A stretch of DNA of 64,000 nt from Pseudomonadota bacterium (lineage in GTDB: Bacteria; Pseudomonadota; Gammaproteobacteria; Burkholderiales; Rhodocyclaceae), in NCBI GenBank assembly GCA_018240785.1, contig JAFEFC010000010.1:1-64000 (forward strand). Reading direction: 5' to 3'. Positions within the stretch are counted from its first letter, which is position 1. Each line of letters begins with the position of its first letter. This document shows, piece after piece, positions 56,389 to 61,356 of this stretch. The position numbers and the translations under genes are program-made. The notes beneath the pieces were generated by a model that ran no database searches, was not told the DNA's origin, and saw nothing but the letters and a program-made list of their open reading frames with translations.

Positions 56389-57705
56389 ATGGACAAGGAT
56401 CGTGCGGCGCGACCGCCGCTGCTCTATCTCGTCCATCGCATCCCGTACCCGCCCAACAAGGGCGACAAGGTGCGCTCGTTCAACATCCTGCGCCAGCTCG
56501 CCCGGCGCCACCGGGTGTTCCTCGGCACCTTCGTCGATCACCCCGACGACCTGCGCCATGTCGAGGCGCTGTCGCAGTGGTGCGAGGACGTCCATGCGGT
56601 ACCCATCGACCCGCGCCGCGCGCGGATCGCCAGCCTGCGCGGGCTGATCACCGGCGAAGCGCTCAGCCTGCCGTACTACCGCAACGCCAGCCTGGCCGCG
56701 TGGGTGCGCGACACAGTGGCGCGGCACCGCATCCGCGACGCGGTCGCCTTTTCCGGGCCGATGGCGCAATACCTCGATGCGCCCGGCCTGACGCGGCGCA
56801 TCGTCGATTTCTGCGACGTCGATTCGGCCAAGTGGACGCAATACGCCGCGGATCGTCCGTGGCCGATGTCCTGGCTGTACCGGCGTGAAGGCGCGCGCCT
56901 GCTCGCCTTCGAGCGTCGCGCCGCCGCCGCCACCGAAGCCAGCCTGTTCGTCACCGCGGCCGAAGCCGATCTCTTCCGCCGCGCCGCGCCGGAGGTGGCC
57001 GCCAAGGTGAGCGCGATGCAGAACGGCGTCGATGCCGAATACTTCTCGCCGTCGCACCGCTTCGATTCGCCCTTTCCGCCGGGTGGGCCGGTGCTGGTGT
57101 TCACCGGCGCCATGGACTACTGGCCCAATGTCGACGCGGTGACCTGGTTCGCCGCCGACATCCTCCCCGCCATCCGCGCGCGGGTGCCCGGCGTGCGCTT
57201 CTGGGTCGTCGGCATGAATCCGGCGCCCGCGGTGCACGCGCTCGCCGATGAGGCGGAGGGCGGCTGTATCCGCGTGACCGGCACGGTACCCGACGTTCGC
57301 CCTTACCTGGCGCACGCCGACGTGGTGGTCGCGCCGCTGCGCATCGCCCGCGGCATCCAGAACAAGGTGCTCGAGGCGATGGCCATGGGTCGCCCGGTGG
57401 TGCTGTCCGCCGCGCCCGCCGTCGGCCTTGCCGCGCAGGACGGGCGCGACTGCGCCATCGCGGCAGACGCCGCCAGCTTTGCCGACAAGGTCGTCGAACT
57501 CCTCGGCCAGCCCGATCGTGGCGGCGACATGGGCCGCTCCGGCCGCGAGGCGGTGCTGCGCGGCTACAGTTGGTCGGCCCATCTCGCCCAGCTCGAGCGC
57601 CTGTTCGCCCTGCGCCGCGCCGACGATCCGCCGGCGTGCGAGCCGCCCGCGTTCGAGCCGCCAGCCACCGTCATCCACACCCCGGCCAGCGCCGCCCCGC
57701 GATGA
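56389..57705 (+). CDS. XrtA-associated glycosyltransferase, TIGR03087 type
   Basis: A 438-residue GT4-type glycosyltransferase. The N-terminus YLVHRIPYPPNKGDKVRSFN is diagnostic of the TIGR03087 group; the donor-binding half has VFTGAMDYWPNVDAVTWFAA and PLRIARGIQNKVLEAMAMGR. The C-terminal 30 residues are Pro/Ala-rich (PPACEPPAFEPPATV), unlike a folded domain. The stop overlaps the next gene start by 4 bases. It probably adds a sugar to the polyprenol-linked unit. Confidence 0.9.
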   Translation: MDKDRAARPPLLYLVHRIPYPPNKGDKVRSFNILRQLARRHRVFLGTFVDHPDDLRHVEALSQWCEDVHAVPIDPRRARIASLRGLITGEALSLPYYRNASLAAWVRDTVARHRIRDAVAFSGPMAQYLDAPGLTRRIVDFCDVDSAKWTQYAADRPWPMSWLYRREGARLLAFERRAAAATEASLFVTAAEADLFRRAAPEVAAKVSAMQNGVDAEYFSPSHRFDSPFPPGGPVLVFTGAMDYWPNVDAVTWFAADILPAIRARVPGVRFWVVGMNPAPAVHALADEAEGGCIRVTGTVPDVRPYLAHADVVVAPLRIARGIQNKVLEAMAMGRPVVLSAAPAVGLAAQDGRDCAIAADAASFADKVVELLGQPDRGGDMGRSGREAVLRGYSWSAHLAQLERLFALRRADDPPACEPPAFEPPATVIHTPASAAPR

Positions 57706-58847
57706 GCGATCCGCGCCCGCTGGTGATGCACCTCGTCTACAGCTTCGACGTCGGCGGGCTGGAGAACGGCGTCGTCAACCTGATCAACCGCATGCCGCCG
57801 GAGCGCTTCCGCCACATGGTGGTCGCGCTCACCCAATGCGCGCCGGCCTTCTGCGCCCGCATCACGCGGCCGGACGTCGAGTTCCTGTCGCTGGAGAAGC
57901 CGCCGGGGCAGGGCTACAAGCTCTATCCGAAGCTCTACCGCCTGTTCCGCCGCTACCGTCCGACGATCCTGCACAGCCGTAACCTCGCCGCGCTCGAAGC
58001 CGTCGTGCCCGCGCGCGCGGCCGGGGTGCCGGTGCGCATCCACGGCGAGCACGGCTGGGAGGAGTCCGACCCGCGCGGCACGCGGCGCAAGTTCCGACTG
58101 CTACGGCGCGTGTACCAGCCTTTCGTCACCCACTACATCGCGCTGTCGGGCGACCTCGAGCGCTACCTCGTCGATCGCGTCGGCGTGCCGGCGGCGCGCG
58201 TCACCCGCATCTGCAACGGCGTGGACACCGCGCGCTTCCATCCCGCCGACGGCCTTCGCCCGAGCATCGCAGGCTGCCCGTTCGCATCGCCGGATAACGT
58301 GCTCATCGGCACCGTCGGCCGCCTGCAGGCGGTCAAGGACCAGCTCACCCTGGTGCGCGCCTTCGCTCGCCTGGTGGCGCAGCGCAGCCCGGCGAGCGAG
58401 CGGGCCCGCCTCGTCATCGCCGGCGATGGACCGCTGCGTCCGCAGGTCGAAGCCGAGATCCGTGCCTCCGGTTGCGCCGACCGCATCTGGCTCGCCGGCG
58501 AGCGCAAGGACGTGCCGGAGTTCATGCGGGGGCTCGACCTCTTCGTGCTACCGTCCCTCTCCGAAGGCATCTCCAACACCATCCTCGAAGCCATGGCCAG
58601 CGGCCTGCCGGTCGTCGCCACCGACGTCGGCGGCAACGGCGAGCTGGTCGTCGTCGGCGCAACCGGCACCCTCGTGCCCGCGGCGGACCCCGCTGCAATG
58701 GCCGACGCACTGATGTGCTACGCTGCCGATGCTGCGCCGCGGCAAAGTCACGGCGCGGCGGGGCGGAAGTGGGTGGAAGCCGAGTTCAGCCTGGATGGGA
58801 TGGTGGAGCGGTATTGCGGTCTATATCGGCGGTTGCTGGATGCATGA
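57702..58847 (+). CDS. XrtA-associated glycosyltransferase, TIGR03088 type
   Basis: A 381-residue GT4 glycosyltransferase. It begins MSDPRPLVMHLVYSFDVGGL with ENGVVNLINRMP, and has GTVGRLQAVKDQLTLVRAFA and LPSLSEGISNTILEAMASGL in the C-terminal donor domain. Its ATG overlaps the stop of the preceding transferase. The gene ends 31 bases before the left inverted repeat of a DUF559 insertion, so its original 3' neighbour was probably the amidotransferase at 59404. Confidence 0.91.
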   Translation: MSDPRPLVMHLVYSFDVGGLENGVVNLINRMPPERFRHMVVALTQCAPAFCARITRPDVEFLSLEKPPGQGYKLYPKLYRLFRRYRPTILHSRNLAALEAVVPARAAGVPVRIHGEHGWEESDPRGTRRKFRLLRRVYQPFVTHYIALSGDLERYLVDRVGVPAARVTRICNGVDTARFHPADGLRPSIAGCPFASPDNVLIGTVGRLQAVKDQLTLVRAFARLVAQRSPASERARLVIAGDGPLRPQVEAEIRASGCADRIWLAGERKDVPEFMRGLDLFVLPSLSEGISNTILEAMASGLPVVATDVGGNGELVVVGATGTLVPAADPAAMADALMCYAADAAPRQSHGAAGRKWVEAEFSLDGMVERYCGLYRRLLDA

Positions 58848-58877: not shown

Positions 58878-58920
58878 CCTCCCCCTTCAAGGGGGAGGTT
58901 GGGAGGGGGATGGGGTTATG
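58878..58920. repeat. Left inverted repeat of the DUF559 unit
   Basis: The repeat starts with a perfect palindrome (CCTCCCCCTT-C-AAGGGGGAGG, 58878-58898) and continues TTGGGAGGGGGATGGGGTTA. Its inverse occurs at 59333-59374. The palindrome itself would form a strong RNA hairpin just after the glycosyltransferase gene. Confidence 0.8.
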
Positions 58921-58952
58921 TGTTGGATGACGTCGTTTGGTCAGTCGATGCG

Positions 58953-59381
58953 ATGAGAGGCCAAACCAACGTTTCCATTCTCGATAACGGTCTGCAAAGA
59001 CGGTTACGGAACAACATGACTGACGCAGAGGCGGCGCTTTGGAGACGTCTGCGGGGCCGGCAACTTGGCGGCAACAAGTTTCGGCGCCAACACCCCTTCC
59101 TGGACTACGTGCTTGATTTTGTTTGCGTTGAAAGGGGGCTGGTTGTCGAGGTCGATGGTGGACAGCACCTGGATAGCCCAGACGACCGACGGCGTGATGA
59201 GCGTTTGCTTGCAGCAGGTTTTCGAGTGCTGCGGTTCTGGAACCATGAAGTATTGATTGAGACAGACGCAGTTTTGAGGGCGATCTGGTCTGCATTGAAT
59301 GAAAGTGGGGATGGCTTGGCGCCAGCGAAGCCGTTACCCCATCCCCACCCCAGCCCTCCCCTTGAAGGGGAGGGAGTTTAG
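58953..59381 (+). CDS. DUF559 (Vsr-like) endonuclease-domain protein
   Basis: A 142-residue protein of the PD-(D/E)xK superfamily, DUF559 group, related to very-short-patch repair endonucleases. The core is MTDAEAALWRRLRGRQLGGN, FLDYVLDFVCVERGLVVEVD, GGQH, and FRVLRFWNHEVL, keeping the E-x-D catalytic pattern. The start ATG 58953 is chosen; the frame opens at 58899 within the left repeat. Its last 15 or so residues (PHPHPSPPLEGEGV) are encoded by the right repeat. Activity is untested; the biological role of the family is unclear. Confidence 0.82.
   Translation: MRGQTNVSILDNGLQRRLRNNMTDAEAALWRRLRGRQLGGNKFRRQHPFLDYVLDFVCVERGLVVEVDGGQHLDSPDDRRRDERLLAAGFRVLRFWNHEVLIETDAVLRAIWSALNESGDGLAPAKPLPHPHPSPPLEGEGV
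59333..59374. repeat. Right inverted repeat of the DUF559 unit
   Basis: GTTACCCCATCCCCACCCCA leads into a perfect palindrome (CCCTCCCCTT-G-AAGGGGAGGG, 59354-59374). It is the inverse of the repeat at 58878-58920 with scattered differences. It overlaps the end of the DUF559 frame and lies 29 bases before the amidotransferase start. Confidence 0.8.
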
Positions 59382-59403: not shown

Positions 59404-61356
59404 ATGTGCGGAATCGCCGGCCTCTTCGACACCCGCGGCAAGCGCGACTTCGATCGCGAGCTGATGCGCCGCATGAACGACGTGCAGCATCACCGCGGGC
59501 CGGATGAAGGCGGCTACCACTTCGAGCCGGGCGTGGCGCTGGCGCACCGGCGCCTGTCCATCATCGACATCGCCACCGGCCAGCAGCCGCTGTTCAACGA
59601 GGACGGCTCGGTCGCCGTCGTGTTCAACGGCGAGATCTACAACTTCCAGGAACTCGTGCCCGAACTGGAAGCGCTCGGCCACGTCTTCCACACCCGCAGC
59701 GACACCGAAGTCATCGTGCACGCTTGGGAAGCCTGGGGCGAGGACTGCGTGCAGCGCTTCCGCGGCATGTTCGCCTTCGCGCTGCACGACCGTAACCGCG
59801 ACACCTTCTTCATGGCGCGCGACCGCCTGGCGGTGAAGCCGATGTTCTACGCGCTGCTGCCCGACGCCACGCTCGCCTTCGGCTCCGAGCTCAAGGTGCT
59901 GATGCAGCACCCGGCGCTGGATCGCCGCATCGACCCGCACGCGGTCGAGGAGTACTTCGCGCTCGGCTACGTCGCCGAGCCGCGCACCATCTTCTTCGGC
60001 GCGAAGAAGCTCGGCCCTGGCGAATCGCTGTGCATCCGCCGCGGCCAGCCCATTCCCGAGCCGAAGCGATACTGGGACGTCGATTTCACCCTCGACAACA
60101 ACATCGGCCTGGCCGACGCCACCGCCGAACTCACCGAGCGCCTGCGTGAATCCGTGCGCCTGCGCATGATCGCCGAAGTGCCGCTGGGCGCCTTCCTGTC
60201 GGGCGGTGTCGACTCCAGCGCGGTGGTCGCGACCATGGCCGGGCTGTCGGACGAGCCGGTCAACACCTGCTCCATCGCCTTCGACGACCCCAAGTTCAAC
60301 GAGTCCGAGTTCGCGCAGAAGGTGGCGGACCGATACCGCACCAATCACTTAGTCGAAACGGTGAAGTCCGACGACTTCGACCTCATCGACACGCTCGCCG
60401 CGCTGTACGACGAGCCCTACGCCGACAGCTCCGCCATCCCCACCTACCGTGTGTGCCAGTTGGCGCGCAAGAAGGTCACCGTGGCGCTGTCGGGCGACGG
60501 CGGGGACGAGAGCTTCGGCGGCTACCGCCGCTACCGTCTGCACCTGATGGAAGAGAAGATGCGCGCGGCGATGCCGCTGGGCGTGCGCCAGCCGGTGTTC
60601 GGCCTGCTCGGCCGCGTCTATCCGAAGGCCGACTGGGCGCCGCGCGTGCTCCGCGCCAAGACCACCTTCCAGGCGCTTGCGCGCGACTCCACCGAGGCCT
60701 ACTTCCACTCGGTGTCGCTGATGCGCGACGACATGCGCCGCAGCCTGTTCACCCCGGGTTTCCGCAAGCAGTTGGCCGGCTACAACGCCATAGACGTGTT
60801 CCGCCGCCACGCCGCCAACGTGAACACCGACGACCCGTTGGCCTTGATCCAGTACCTCGACCTCAAGACCTATCTCGTCGGCGACATCAACACCAAGGTC
60901 GACCGCGCCAGCATGGCTCACTCGCTGGAAGTGCGCGAACCGCTGATGGACCACAAGCTGGTCGAATGGCTCGCCACGCTGCCCTCCGGCCTCAAGATCA
61001 AGGGCAACGAAGGCAAGTACCTGTTCAAGAAGGCGATGGAGCCGCTGCTGCCCGACGACGTGCTGTATCGCCCCAAGATGGGCTTTGCCGTGCCGCTCGC
61101 GCGCTGGTTCCGCGGCCCGCTCAAGCAGCGCGTGCGCGACGCGGTGCTGGGCGACACCCTGGCCGCCACCGGCATCTTCAACCGCGACTACCTGCACCAC
61201 TTGGTCGACGCCCACCAGTCCGGCGCGCGCGACTACAGCTCGCCGCTGTGGACGCTGCTGATGTTCGAGGCCTTCCTGCGCAACGTCGGCCAAGCGGCCC
61301 AGCCAATCGCGCCGACCGAACCTGTAGGAGCGGGCTTGACCGCGACCAGCGCATGA
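59404..61356 (+). CDS. XrtA-associated asparagine synthase-like amidotransferase
   Basis: A 650-residue protein of the TIGR03108 group. Cys2 is the glutaminase nucleophile (MCGIAGLFDTRG) and residues 266-272 SGGVDSS form the ATP-pyrophosphatase loop; DGGDESFGGYRRYR and REPLMDHKLVEWLA are conserved. It probably amidates a uronic or other carboxylate sugar of the polymer. The start ATG 59404 begins with the required cysteine; longer frames run into the inserted repeat. Its last codons (VGAGLTATSA) lie in a REP unit. Confidence 0.92.
   Translation: MCGIAGLFDTRGKRDFDRELMRRMNDVQHHRGPDEGGYHFEPGVALAHRRLSIIDIATGQQPLFNEDGSVAVVFNGEIYNFQELVPELEALGHVFHTRSDTEVIVHAWEAWGEDCVQRFRGMFAFALHDRNRDTFFMARDRLAVKPMFYALLPDATLAFGSELKVLMQHPALDRRIDPHAVEEYFALGYVAEPRTIFFGAKKLGPGESLCIRRGQPIPEPKRYWDVDFTLDNNIGLADATAELTERLRESVRLRMIAEVPLGAFLSGGVDSSAVVATMAGLSDEPVNTCSIAFDDPKFNESEFAQKVADRYRTNHLVETVKSDDFDLIDTLAALYDEPYADSSAIPTYRVCQLARKKVTVALSGDGGDESFGGYRRYRLHLMEEKMRAAMPLGVRQPVFGLLGRVYPKADWAPRVLRAKTTFQALARDSTEAYFHSVSLMRDDMRRSLFTPGFRKQLAGYNAIDVFRRHAANVNTDDPLALIQYLDLKTYLVGDINTKVDRASMAHSLEVREPLMDHKLVEWLATLPSGLKIKGNEGKYLFKKAMEPLLPDDVLYRPKMGFAVPLARWFRGPLKQRVRDAVLGDTLAATGIFNRDYLHHLVDAHQSGARDYSSPLWTLLMFEAFLRNVGQAAQPIAPTEPVGAGLTATSA

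Follow-up and report, generated by a model that had tools for sequence, protein, structure and literature searches.

The window analysed here comprises the first 64,000 nt of contig JAFEFC010000010.1 from a bacterium of the family Rhodocyclaceae (assembly GCA_018240785.1). It contains a probable mobile unit of about 498 nt (positions 58878–59375), in which two inverted, palindrome-tipped arms enclose a single gene for a nuclease of the DUF559 family. The unit and its neighbours were delimited as follows.

58878–58916, forward strand: left arm, a palindrome (58878–58898) followed by a G-rich tail (sequence, repeat search and score test).
58953–59381, forward strand: DUF559 (PF04480) Vsr-like nuclease gene, 142 amino acids, ATG start (list of open reading frames (ORFs), Pfam; AlphaFold2 (AF2) model and PDB matches).
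59334–59378, forward strand: C-terminal tail of the nuclease, 15 residues, LPHPHPSPPLEGEGV, encoded by the right arm (translation).
59336–59375, reverse strand: right arm, inverted, a C-rich tail and then a palindrome (59354–59374) (sequence, repeat search and score test).
57570–58847, forward strand: left neighbour, a glycosyltransferase-type gene from its first listed start codon (identity read from the sequence).
59404–61356, forward strand: right neighbour, an asparagine-synthetase-type gene (identity read from the sequence).

The unit, its nuclease and its insertion site

The left-arm palindrome was shown to consist of 21 nt around one central base, followed by a G-rich tail that also matches a G-quadruplex pattern; the right-arm palindrome is likewise 21 nt long. 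The two arms were similar, not identical (76% over 58 nt in the repeat search), with a palindrome of the 5-C type in the left arm and of the 4-C type in the right arm. Their ungapped inverted-repeat score was 24.5; neither 1000 shuffles of both 300-nt flanks (maximum 13.5) nor 619 control placements within the window (maximum 16.0) gave as high a score. The initial annotation, made from the sequence alone, had described a 0.5-kb unit with palindrome-led inverted ends at 58878–59381. Such a discrete unit is present and its left end was placed correctly, whereas the proposed right end is the stop codon of the nuclease gene, a few bases past the arm. No GTAG tag adjoining either palindrome of the unit was seen by eye.

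As had also been proposed, the unit carries a single gene. Its product matched PF04480 with an E-value of 1.1e-35 (122.2 bits; curated Pfam cut-off 20.6), and its last 15 residues are translated from the right arm, as the initial annotation had read them. An alternative in-frame start, TTG, is present at 58899. Only nuclease families were found by Pfam on the ORF of the unit, with no HUH/Y1 tyrosine transposase, and no methyltransferase was detected between the arms in the sequence and ORFs of the unit. Residues E26, D55, E66, D68 and H72 were invariant across 48 DUF559 sequences, and we infer from this alignment that they are the catalytic residues of a VSR-type site. The protein has a VSR-like catalytic fold, as in EDxHD homing endonucleases (AF2 model and PDB matches), and the nearest relative outside the family was the homing endonuclease I-Bth0305I, with a significant profile and fold match. 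The very-short-patch repair endonuclease Vsr was rejected as a profile match (E only 0.17, below acceptance); the unit differs from Vsr also in having no methyltransferase and in its flanking repeats, which are of a mobile type. Searches for other identities were equally unproductive: PADLOC gave a single weak match to an anti-phage defence protein (DpdF, E 0.0088), PHROGs a single weak endonuclease match and Rfam only a sub-threshold match.

The window genome has one DUF559 gene. Compared with the gene of the genus member G021, dN/dS across the DUF559 domain was 0.09, and the nuclease is thus under purifying selection; compared with G042, synonymous sites were saturated and no value could be obtained. 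Synonymous divergence from G021 was 0.79 in the DUF559 domain, about three times that at the start of the neighbouring gene (0.27), despite the same site being occupied in both genomes.

The locus was compared among 29 genomes of the genus, the window's own included. In 19 of the 28 others, the flanking genes lie next to each other and the unit is missing (a spacer of 19–110 nt in 16, another gene pair in three), in agreement with the initial description of an otherwise compact operon. G021 was the only other genome with the unit at the same place, where it is followed by three gene-less repeat units of about 130 nt. Seven genomes had no adjacent flanking pair in the fetched loci and one had no match. 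Orthologous sites that lack the gene were, where inspected, also found to lack the arms, and most sampled DUF559 genes are armed (see below); orthologues holding the gene without repeats, the pattern that would have spoken against the initial annotation, are therefore not what was seen. The gene pair at the insertion site in G007 (L070) encodes a nucleotidyltransferase (NTP_transf_2, 2.5e-12) and a HEPN protein (3.5e-14); G003 (L071) and G010 (L076) also hold another pair there, matched by eye only, that of G010 looking shortened. With a different gene pair present in three members of the genus, this spacer looks like an insertion hotspot.

Dispersed arms and their association with DUF559

The initial annotation had treated the unit as a lone element, which turned out to be wrong: its arms belong to a dispersed family. 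A search of the window genome with the left palindrome (up to three mismatches) gave 12 places, namely the unit, nine further L-type palindromes, one R-type palindrome and one other match that looks unrelated (C13:115925). The right palindrome gave nine places including the unit, i.e., eight further R-type palindromes. Six dispersed pairs are gene-less L+R pairs with the palindromes outward and the tails some 20 nt apart, and one is tail-outward (G000:C16:60169–60256; L009, also L295). By eye, this tail-outward pair is translated in frame within an RND-transporter-like gene; it is common to G021 and absent from five relatives compared.

A stricter pattern of the window repeat type was found in seven of 81 genomes (the window's own and 80 relatives). 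Three of the carriers have a full-length DUF559 gene (the window genome with six matches, G021 with 12 and G042 with eight), and four do not (G016 with four matches; G001, G031 and G036 with one each), G036 having a DUF559 remnant with a stop. G016, which has no full-length DUF559 match, has at least four repeat sites in common with the window genome, as if its nuclease had been lost or not assembled. Other relatives with a full-length DUF559 gene had no exact window repeat and mostly had arms of their own type; no arms were seen at L034, L037 and L056, the L037 match being translated on a doubtful strand.

Paired arms, defined by an inverted-repeat score of at least 16, were then counted at DUF559 loci in two samples, whose loci are not independent because some are orthologous or come from one genome. 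The first sample consisted of the best 80 of 541 named loci found with the window protein, a ranking that favoured proteins with a repeat-derived tail; seven were too close to a contig end, and 59 of the 73 usable loci reached the threshold, compared with 2 of 4300 controls placed within those loci. The second was drawn by domain score alone. In an even draw of 249 Pseudomonadota genomes, PF04480 was detected (E ≤1e-10) in 62, and 90 places were taken (the 30 given by the search and the next 60), the window's own place and weaker places being excluded. Here, 62 of 88 usable loci reached the threshold versus 12 of 2640 control placements, and 48 of 88 versus none of 2640 reached a score of at least 25. 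Among named loci, arms were also present outside the Pseudomonadota, in Thermodesulfobacteriota (6/6), Chloroflexota (3/4), Nitrospirota (2/3), Planctomycetota (1/1) and one Melainabacteria genome; neither of two Myxococcota loci had them. The arms of alphaproteobacterial loci may resemble the RIME, Bru-RS and CIR repeats. The association of arms with DUF559 genes is well supported as a general one, and the initial observation is real and wider than first described.

Matches to a general arm pattern were tallied over the 249 Pseudomonadota genomes, overlapping matches of one repeat being counted separately. At least 10 matches were found in 42 of 62 genomes with DUF559 and in 9 of 187 without (Fisher 1.4e-23), with totals of 2682 and 546 matches compared with 35 and 58 for a reversed control pattern. 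Permutation of labels inside 13 mixed families (123 genomes) gave p 5e-5, and in genus g80, 194 repeats were found in a genome with four DUF559 matches and none in a genome lacking DUF559. A second pattern that would have told against the initial annotation, repeats at many loci unrelated to DUF559, was found in part: gene-less loci are many, but repeat-rich genomes mostly carry DUF559.

The class of arm stem tracks the nuclease tree. On 97 labelled loci, 26 class changes were counted on the DUF559 tree compared with a mean of 41.5 and a minimum of 35 in 300 shuffles, the stem classes being coarse and defined by us and 24 of 121 arms remaining unlabelled. For 48 named loci shuffled within class, there were 12 changes versus 17.8 (p 0.003). 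Arm presence required 34 changes as a raw count.

A survey of what lies between inverted repeats covered 138 repeats, with overlapping duplicates merged, in 12 genomes (11 of the 15 with listed first places, G198, G226, G268 and G321 being omitted, and the window's own). Inverted neighbours less than 200 nt apart numbered 27 (16 palindrome-outward and 11 tail-outward). Only five inverted pairs lay 200–1500 nt apart; four of them hold DUF559 and the fifth joins two separate elements. In a second, partial listing of 15 genomes, pairs in G143, G300 and G225 hold DUF559 by eye. Three wider pairs in G284, all of them inspected, do not; the two with ORFs listed are repeat mosaics with no evident conserved gene, as judged by eye and not by a family search. 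The stretches between these wide inverted pairs (L355–L357) are large, non-coding and mosaic, made up of several types of palindromic repeat.

Reading frames through the arms were compared at the 121 paired-arm loci, where the stop codon lies before the 3′ arm in 43, inside it in 21 and after it in 57. The 3′ arm is open in the DUF559 frame at 98 loci and in the other two frames at 108 and 106, and the 5′ arm at 93, 101 and 95 in the three frames. Selection for open frames through the arms was therefore not supported, the DUF559 frame being no more open than the others, and since the arms are about equally open in all three frames, the arm-encoded tail of the protein is probably a passive read-through.

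Second copies and in-frame insertions

Related units were mostly found at orthologous sites. Two genomes carry second copies without homology of the flanks: G202 (L207 and L219, 83% identity) and G274 (L185 and L210, 81%). In the G274 pair, homology starts about 20 nt outside the left palindrome and stops a few nt past the right one, and in the G202 pair it starts at the outer edge of the left palindrome, so that homology ends near palindromes at three of the four ends. With 81–83% identity and unrelated flanks, these copies indicate that units have moved, though not recently.

A DUF559 domain within an open frame of at least 350 codons was present at 16 of 161 loci, 15 of which were scanned with Pfam (L141 was left out). 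Host domains were found on both sides at five loci, in genes for Mfd (L111), valyl-type class I tRNA synthetases (L125 and L116), MetH (L146) and PriA (L174); on one side only at L130, L154, L186 and L192, the last with DUF559 fused behind an HsdM-type domain; and on neither side at six. Among six DUF559 loci from relatives of the L125 genome, both-side host domains were found at L347 and L348 (isoleucyl-type class I synthetases) and L350 (DnaE), a domain on one side at L349 and short frames at L351 and L352. This makes eight in-frame units within conserved genes (Mfd, DnaE, PriA, MetH and four class I tRNA synthetases). The labels valyl and isoleucyl rest on matches to Val_tRNA-synt_C (L116) and DUF5915 (L347 and L348) and on our own reading; for L125 the scan also gave a weak match to a leucyl editing domain.

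By eye, five of six relatives have neither DUF559 nor a recognisable repeat at the L125 site. The sixth (G333, L342) has a different palindromic repeat in frame at the same synthetase site, and L125 itself, also by eye, shows another, gene-less-looking repeat pair that is translated farther downstream in its synthetase. The L125 genome gave no other full match to this synthetase at E ≤1e-20, in a draft whose completeness is not given.

Rickettsia palindromic elements (RPE) also lie in frame inside protein genes, including a DnaE gene (PMC10969869, PMC3733652). They are about 150 bp long and are said there to code a peptide, with no enzyme named, whereas the in-frame inserts described here contain a nuclease gene.

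Known repeat systems and interpretation of the units

Many arms have the layout of the BoxC/PIT/TM-ECO repeats, with a C-rich half, a loop, a G-rich half and a repeated G-rich half (Holder et al., PMC4666352, also for what follows). This GC-rich intrastrand triplex motif is known from more than 260 genomes; some of the repeats form inverted pairs that join a type A to a type B copy, with five such pairs in E. coli, and triplex formation in vitro was reported for the E. coli motif. Near the E. coli sites, no remnant of a transposase or integrase was ever found. The repeats are described there without an associated gene, and the words DUF559, Vsr and nuclease are absent from that text, whereas the full form here carries DUF559. 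Among the paired-arm loci (n = 121), a triplex-type motif was found on both sides at 52 and on one side at 21, and among the loci without paired arms (both samples, n = 40) on one side at 17; at random positions any such motif occurred in 50 of 2018. A third half-site (at least 7 of 8 bases) was held by 39 of 96 arms, compared with 11.7 expected from shuffled tails, and was absent from the other 57.

In E. coli, a 35-nt query of the triplex-type repeat had matches in 5369 of 5426 genomes, and triplex-type repeats lie on the 3′ side of the DUF559 gene ycjD in all three loci inspected (L361, L362 and L365), the 5′ end having an unrelated hairpin. In 3361 of the 5426 genomes, at least 80% of a sapF-ycjD query was matched, and ycjD is beside sapF in the 25 near-full matches listed. 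E. coli was set aside as a test of an empty site: inspected strains without ycjD carry an efflux operon there, which is eefRABCD (PMC12817139), and because this operon replaces ycjD the alleles are not empty versus filled. At the Neisseria gonorrhoeae locus (L363), triplex-like repeats flank the DUF559 gene in the same orientation and not inverted.

The closest parallel in organisation is the RAYT/REP/REPIN system, which also has a gene for a DNA-cutting enzyme between palindromic repeats in few copies per genome and many dispersed, non-autonomous inverted pairs, the type of repeat being tied to the type of enzyme (PMC3116915, PMC3733652). RAYTs are Y1/HUH tyrosine transposases acting with GTAG-tagged REPs, whereas here the DUF559 enzyme is of a PD-(D/E)XK/Vsr-like fold and the window palindromes are untagged; with no HUH enzyme and no GTAG tag, the window-type system is not a REPtron. 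I-Bth0305I likewise is of the VSR (EDxHD) fold and is the product of a nuclease gene whose own spread would proceed through repair of a break. It differs in being a long multi-domain protein that has DNA-binding regions and a target nearly 60 bp long, and its family is mostly phage-encoded (PMC3943268), whereas DUF559 units have one domain, no intron that could be seen and terminal inverted repeats. RAYT/REP is the better comparison because the arms belong to a dispersed, mostly gene-less family of short paired repeats. No literature linking DUF559 to such repeats was found among open-licence papers, mostly in titles and the openings of abstracts, where a report may have gone unseen.

With a probability of roughly 0.6, we regard the unit as the complete, nuclease-carrying form of a family of small mobile elements that is driven by a VSR/EDxHD-fold nuclease in a REPtron-like manner. 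In such elements, two inverted palindromic arms, often of the intrastrand-triplex type, enclose the gene for the single-domain nuclease, and the gene-less forms scattered through the same genomes (paired arms less than 200 nt apart, or single arms) would be deleted derivatives. The nuclease would recognise its own arms, probably as a hairpin or triplex exposed in single-stranded DNA during replication, and nick or cut there, and host repair or replication would then copy the arms, with or without the gene, to a new place. That the protein cuts DNA, binds the arms and causes their spread is what we infer from the comparisons above. By analogy the system would work like homing endonucleases or RAYT/REP, which use other chemistries. 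The homing-like spread suggested by the initial annotation gains from the similarity in sequence and fold to I-Bth0305I; cleavage and copying are steps presumed from sequence and model.

A number of observations weigh against this reading. Palindromic ends do not always accompany the gene, as the initial annotation had considered they might: 26 of the 88 loci of the second sample had no scored paired arms, and the E. coli loci L361 and L362 and the gonococcal L363, with scores of 9, 8 and 10, have no paired inverted arms. Orientation was mixed among the 121 paired-arm loci, with 58 palindrome-outward, 15 tail-outward and 48 ambiguous or hairpin-less. Triplex-type motifs were on neither side at 48 of these 121 loci and at 23 of the 40 loci without paired arms, and because of those 48 and of a third half-site in 39 of 96 arms only, the triplex type fails to cover all arms. 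Eighteen of the 62 DUF559-positive genomes had fewer than five pattern matches, and nine DUF559-negative genomes (G134, G276, G098, G106, G129, G169, G204, G219 and G239) had at least 10 and up to 147, three of them being less than 90% complete. When arms were compared with the listed repeats of ten genomes, those of the own genome matched best in only 7 of 17 loci and ranked ninth or tenth of ten in another 7, one further locus having no arm by pattern. Movement must be rare, since close relatives of a unit mostly sit at orthologous sites. For L207/L219 (G202), the right limit of homology is the gene end and not an arm; a third pair of copies (G108, 68%) has no arm-defined edge, and no target duplication was seen at second copies. 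The empty site in close relatives from which the initial annotation had hoped to read the exact ends and any duplication was not found for the window unit, the spacers of relatives being too diverged. Short intergenic elements gave neither in relatives whose neighbouring genes are mostly 90–99% identical, the spacers having turned over, and by eye no target site duplication was seen beside paired elements, where no exact empty site was available for confirmation. Finally, the Caulobacter DUF559 protein VsrA was linked to a methylation-linked SOS response and read as very-short-patch repair (PMC12907096).

Of the alternatives, the one that survives best is that DUF559 was once a mobility enzyme and that the units now pass on by vertical inheritance and persist as domesticated nucleases, a view also put forward for RAYTs. 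This is compatible with our reading as far as the past is concerned, and because the two overlap the odds given to the readings do not sum to one. The prevalence of orthologous sites, the dN/dS of 0.09 and the wide occurrence of ycjD, beside sapF in the matches listed, agree with it; the second copies in G202 and G274, whose flanks are unrelated, do not, and we consider it a tentative possibility. It is less probable, and in our view unlikely, that the palindromes are independent repeats, produced by replication slippage, recombination or another enzyme, with DUF559 merely caught between two of them. Most arm copies are indeed gene-less, the nine repeat-rich genomes without DUF559 and the poor own-genome matching fit this explanation, and the triplex-motif study favours structure-driven instability (PMC4666352). 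It would not predict the co-occurrence within families or the co-phylogeny of arm class and nuclease, and four of the five listed inverted pairs at 200–1500 nt hold DUF559, the two wider G284 pairs with ORFs listed being, by eye, mosaics with no evident conserved gene. More doubtful still is a Vsr-like mismatch or modification-linked nuclease useful to the host, with terminators or recombination scars as flanking repeats. Against it are the lack of a methyltransferase in the unit (one locus, L192, is fused behind an HsdM-type domain), a patchy presence (62 of 249 genomes), a weak DpdF hit as the sole PADLOC match, and insertions inside conserved genes and second copies with new flanks that look mobile. 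Terminators as the source of both palindromes were set aside because of the inverted pairing, the dispersed copies and the co-occurrence.

Read as a mobile element, the unit would point to a class of autonomous elements in which a single-domain VSR/EDxHD-fold nuclease, without transposase, recombinase or intron, has paired palindromes, many of them of the intrastrand-triplex type, as its ends. We see an even chance that such a class exists, driving the spread of BoxC/PIT-like and perhaps other untagged palindromes in several phyla and able to insert into tRNA-synthetase, DNA polymerase III and helicase genes with the reading frame kept intact. The principle of an enzyme with dispersed palindromes is known; what is new here is a different class of enzyme. 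DUF559 is a widespread family of "unknown function" that includes E. coli ycjD, Caulobacter vsrA and gonococcal NGO0050 (solved structure 3hrl), and its in-frame copies in core genes indicate that host proteins can apparently accommodate an insert coding for a nuclease. The nuclease may be the missing partner behind the spread of widespread palindromic repeats, and the link of such repeats to DUF559 makes the old puzzle of the triplex repeats testable at the bench with a single small protein and a single 40-nt oligonucleotide.
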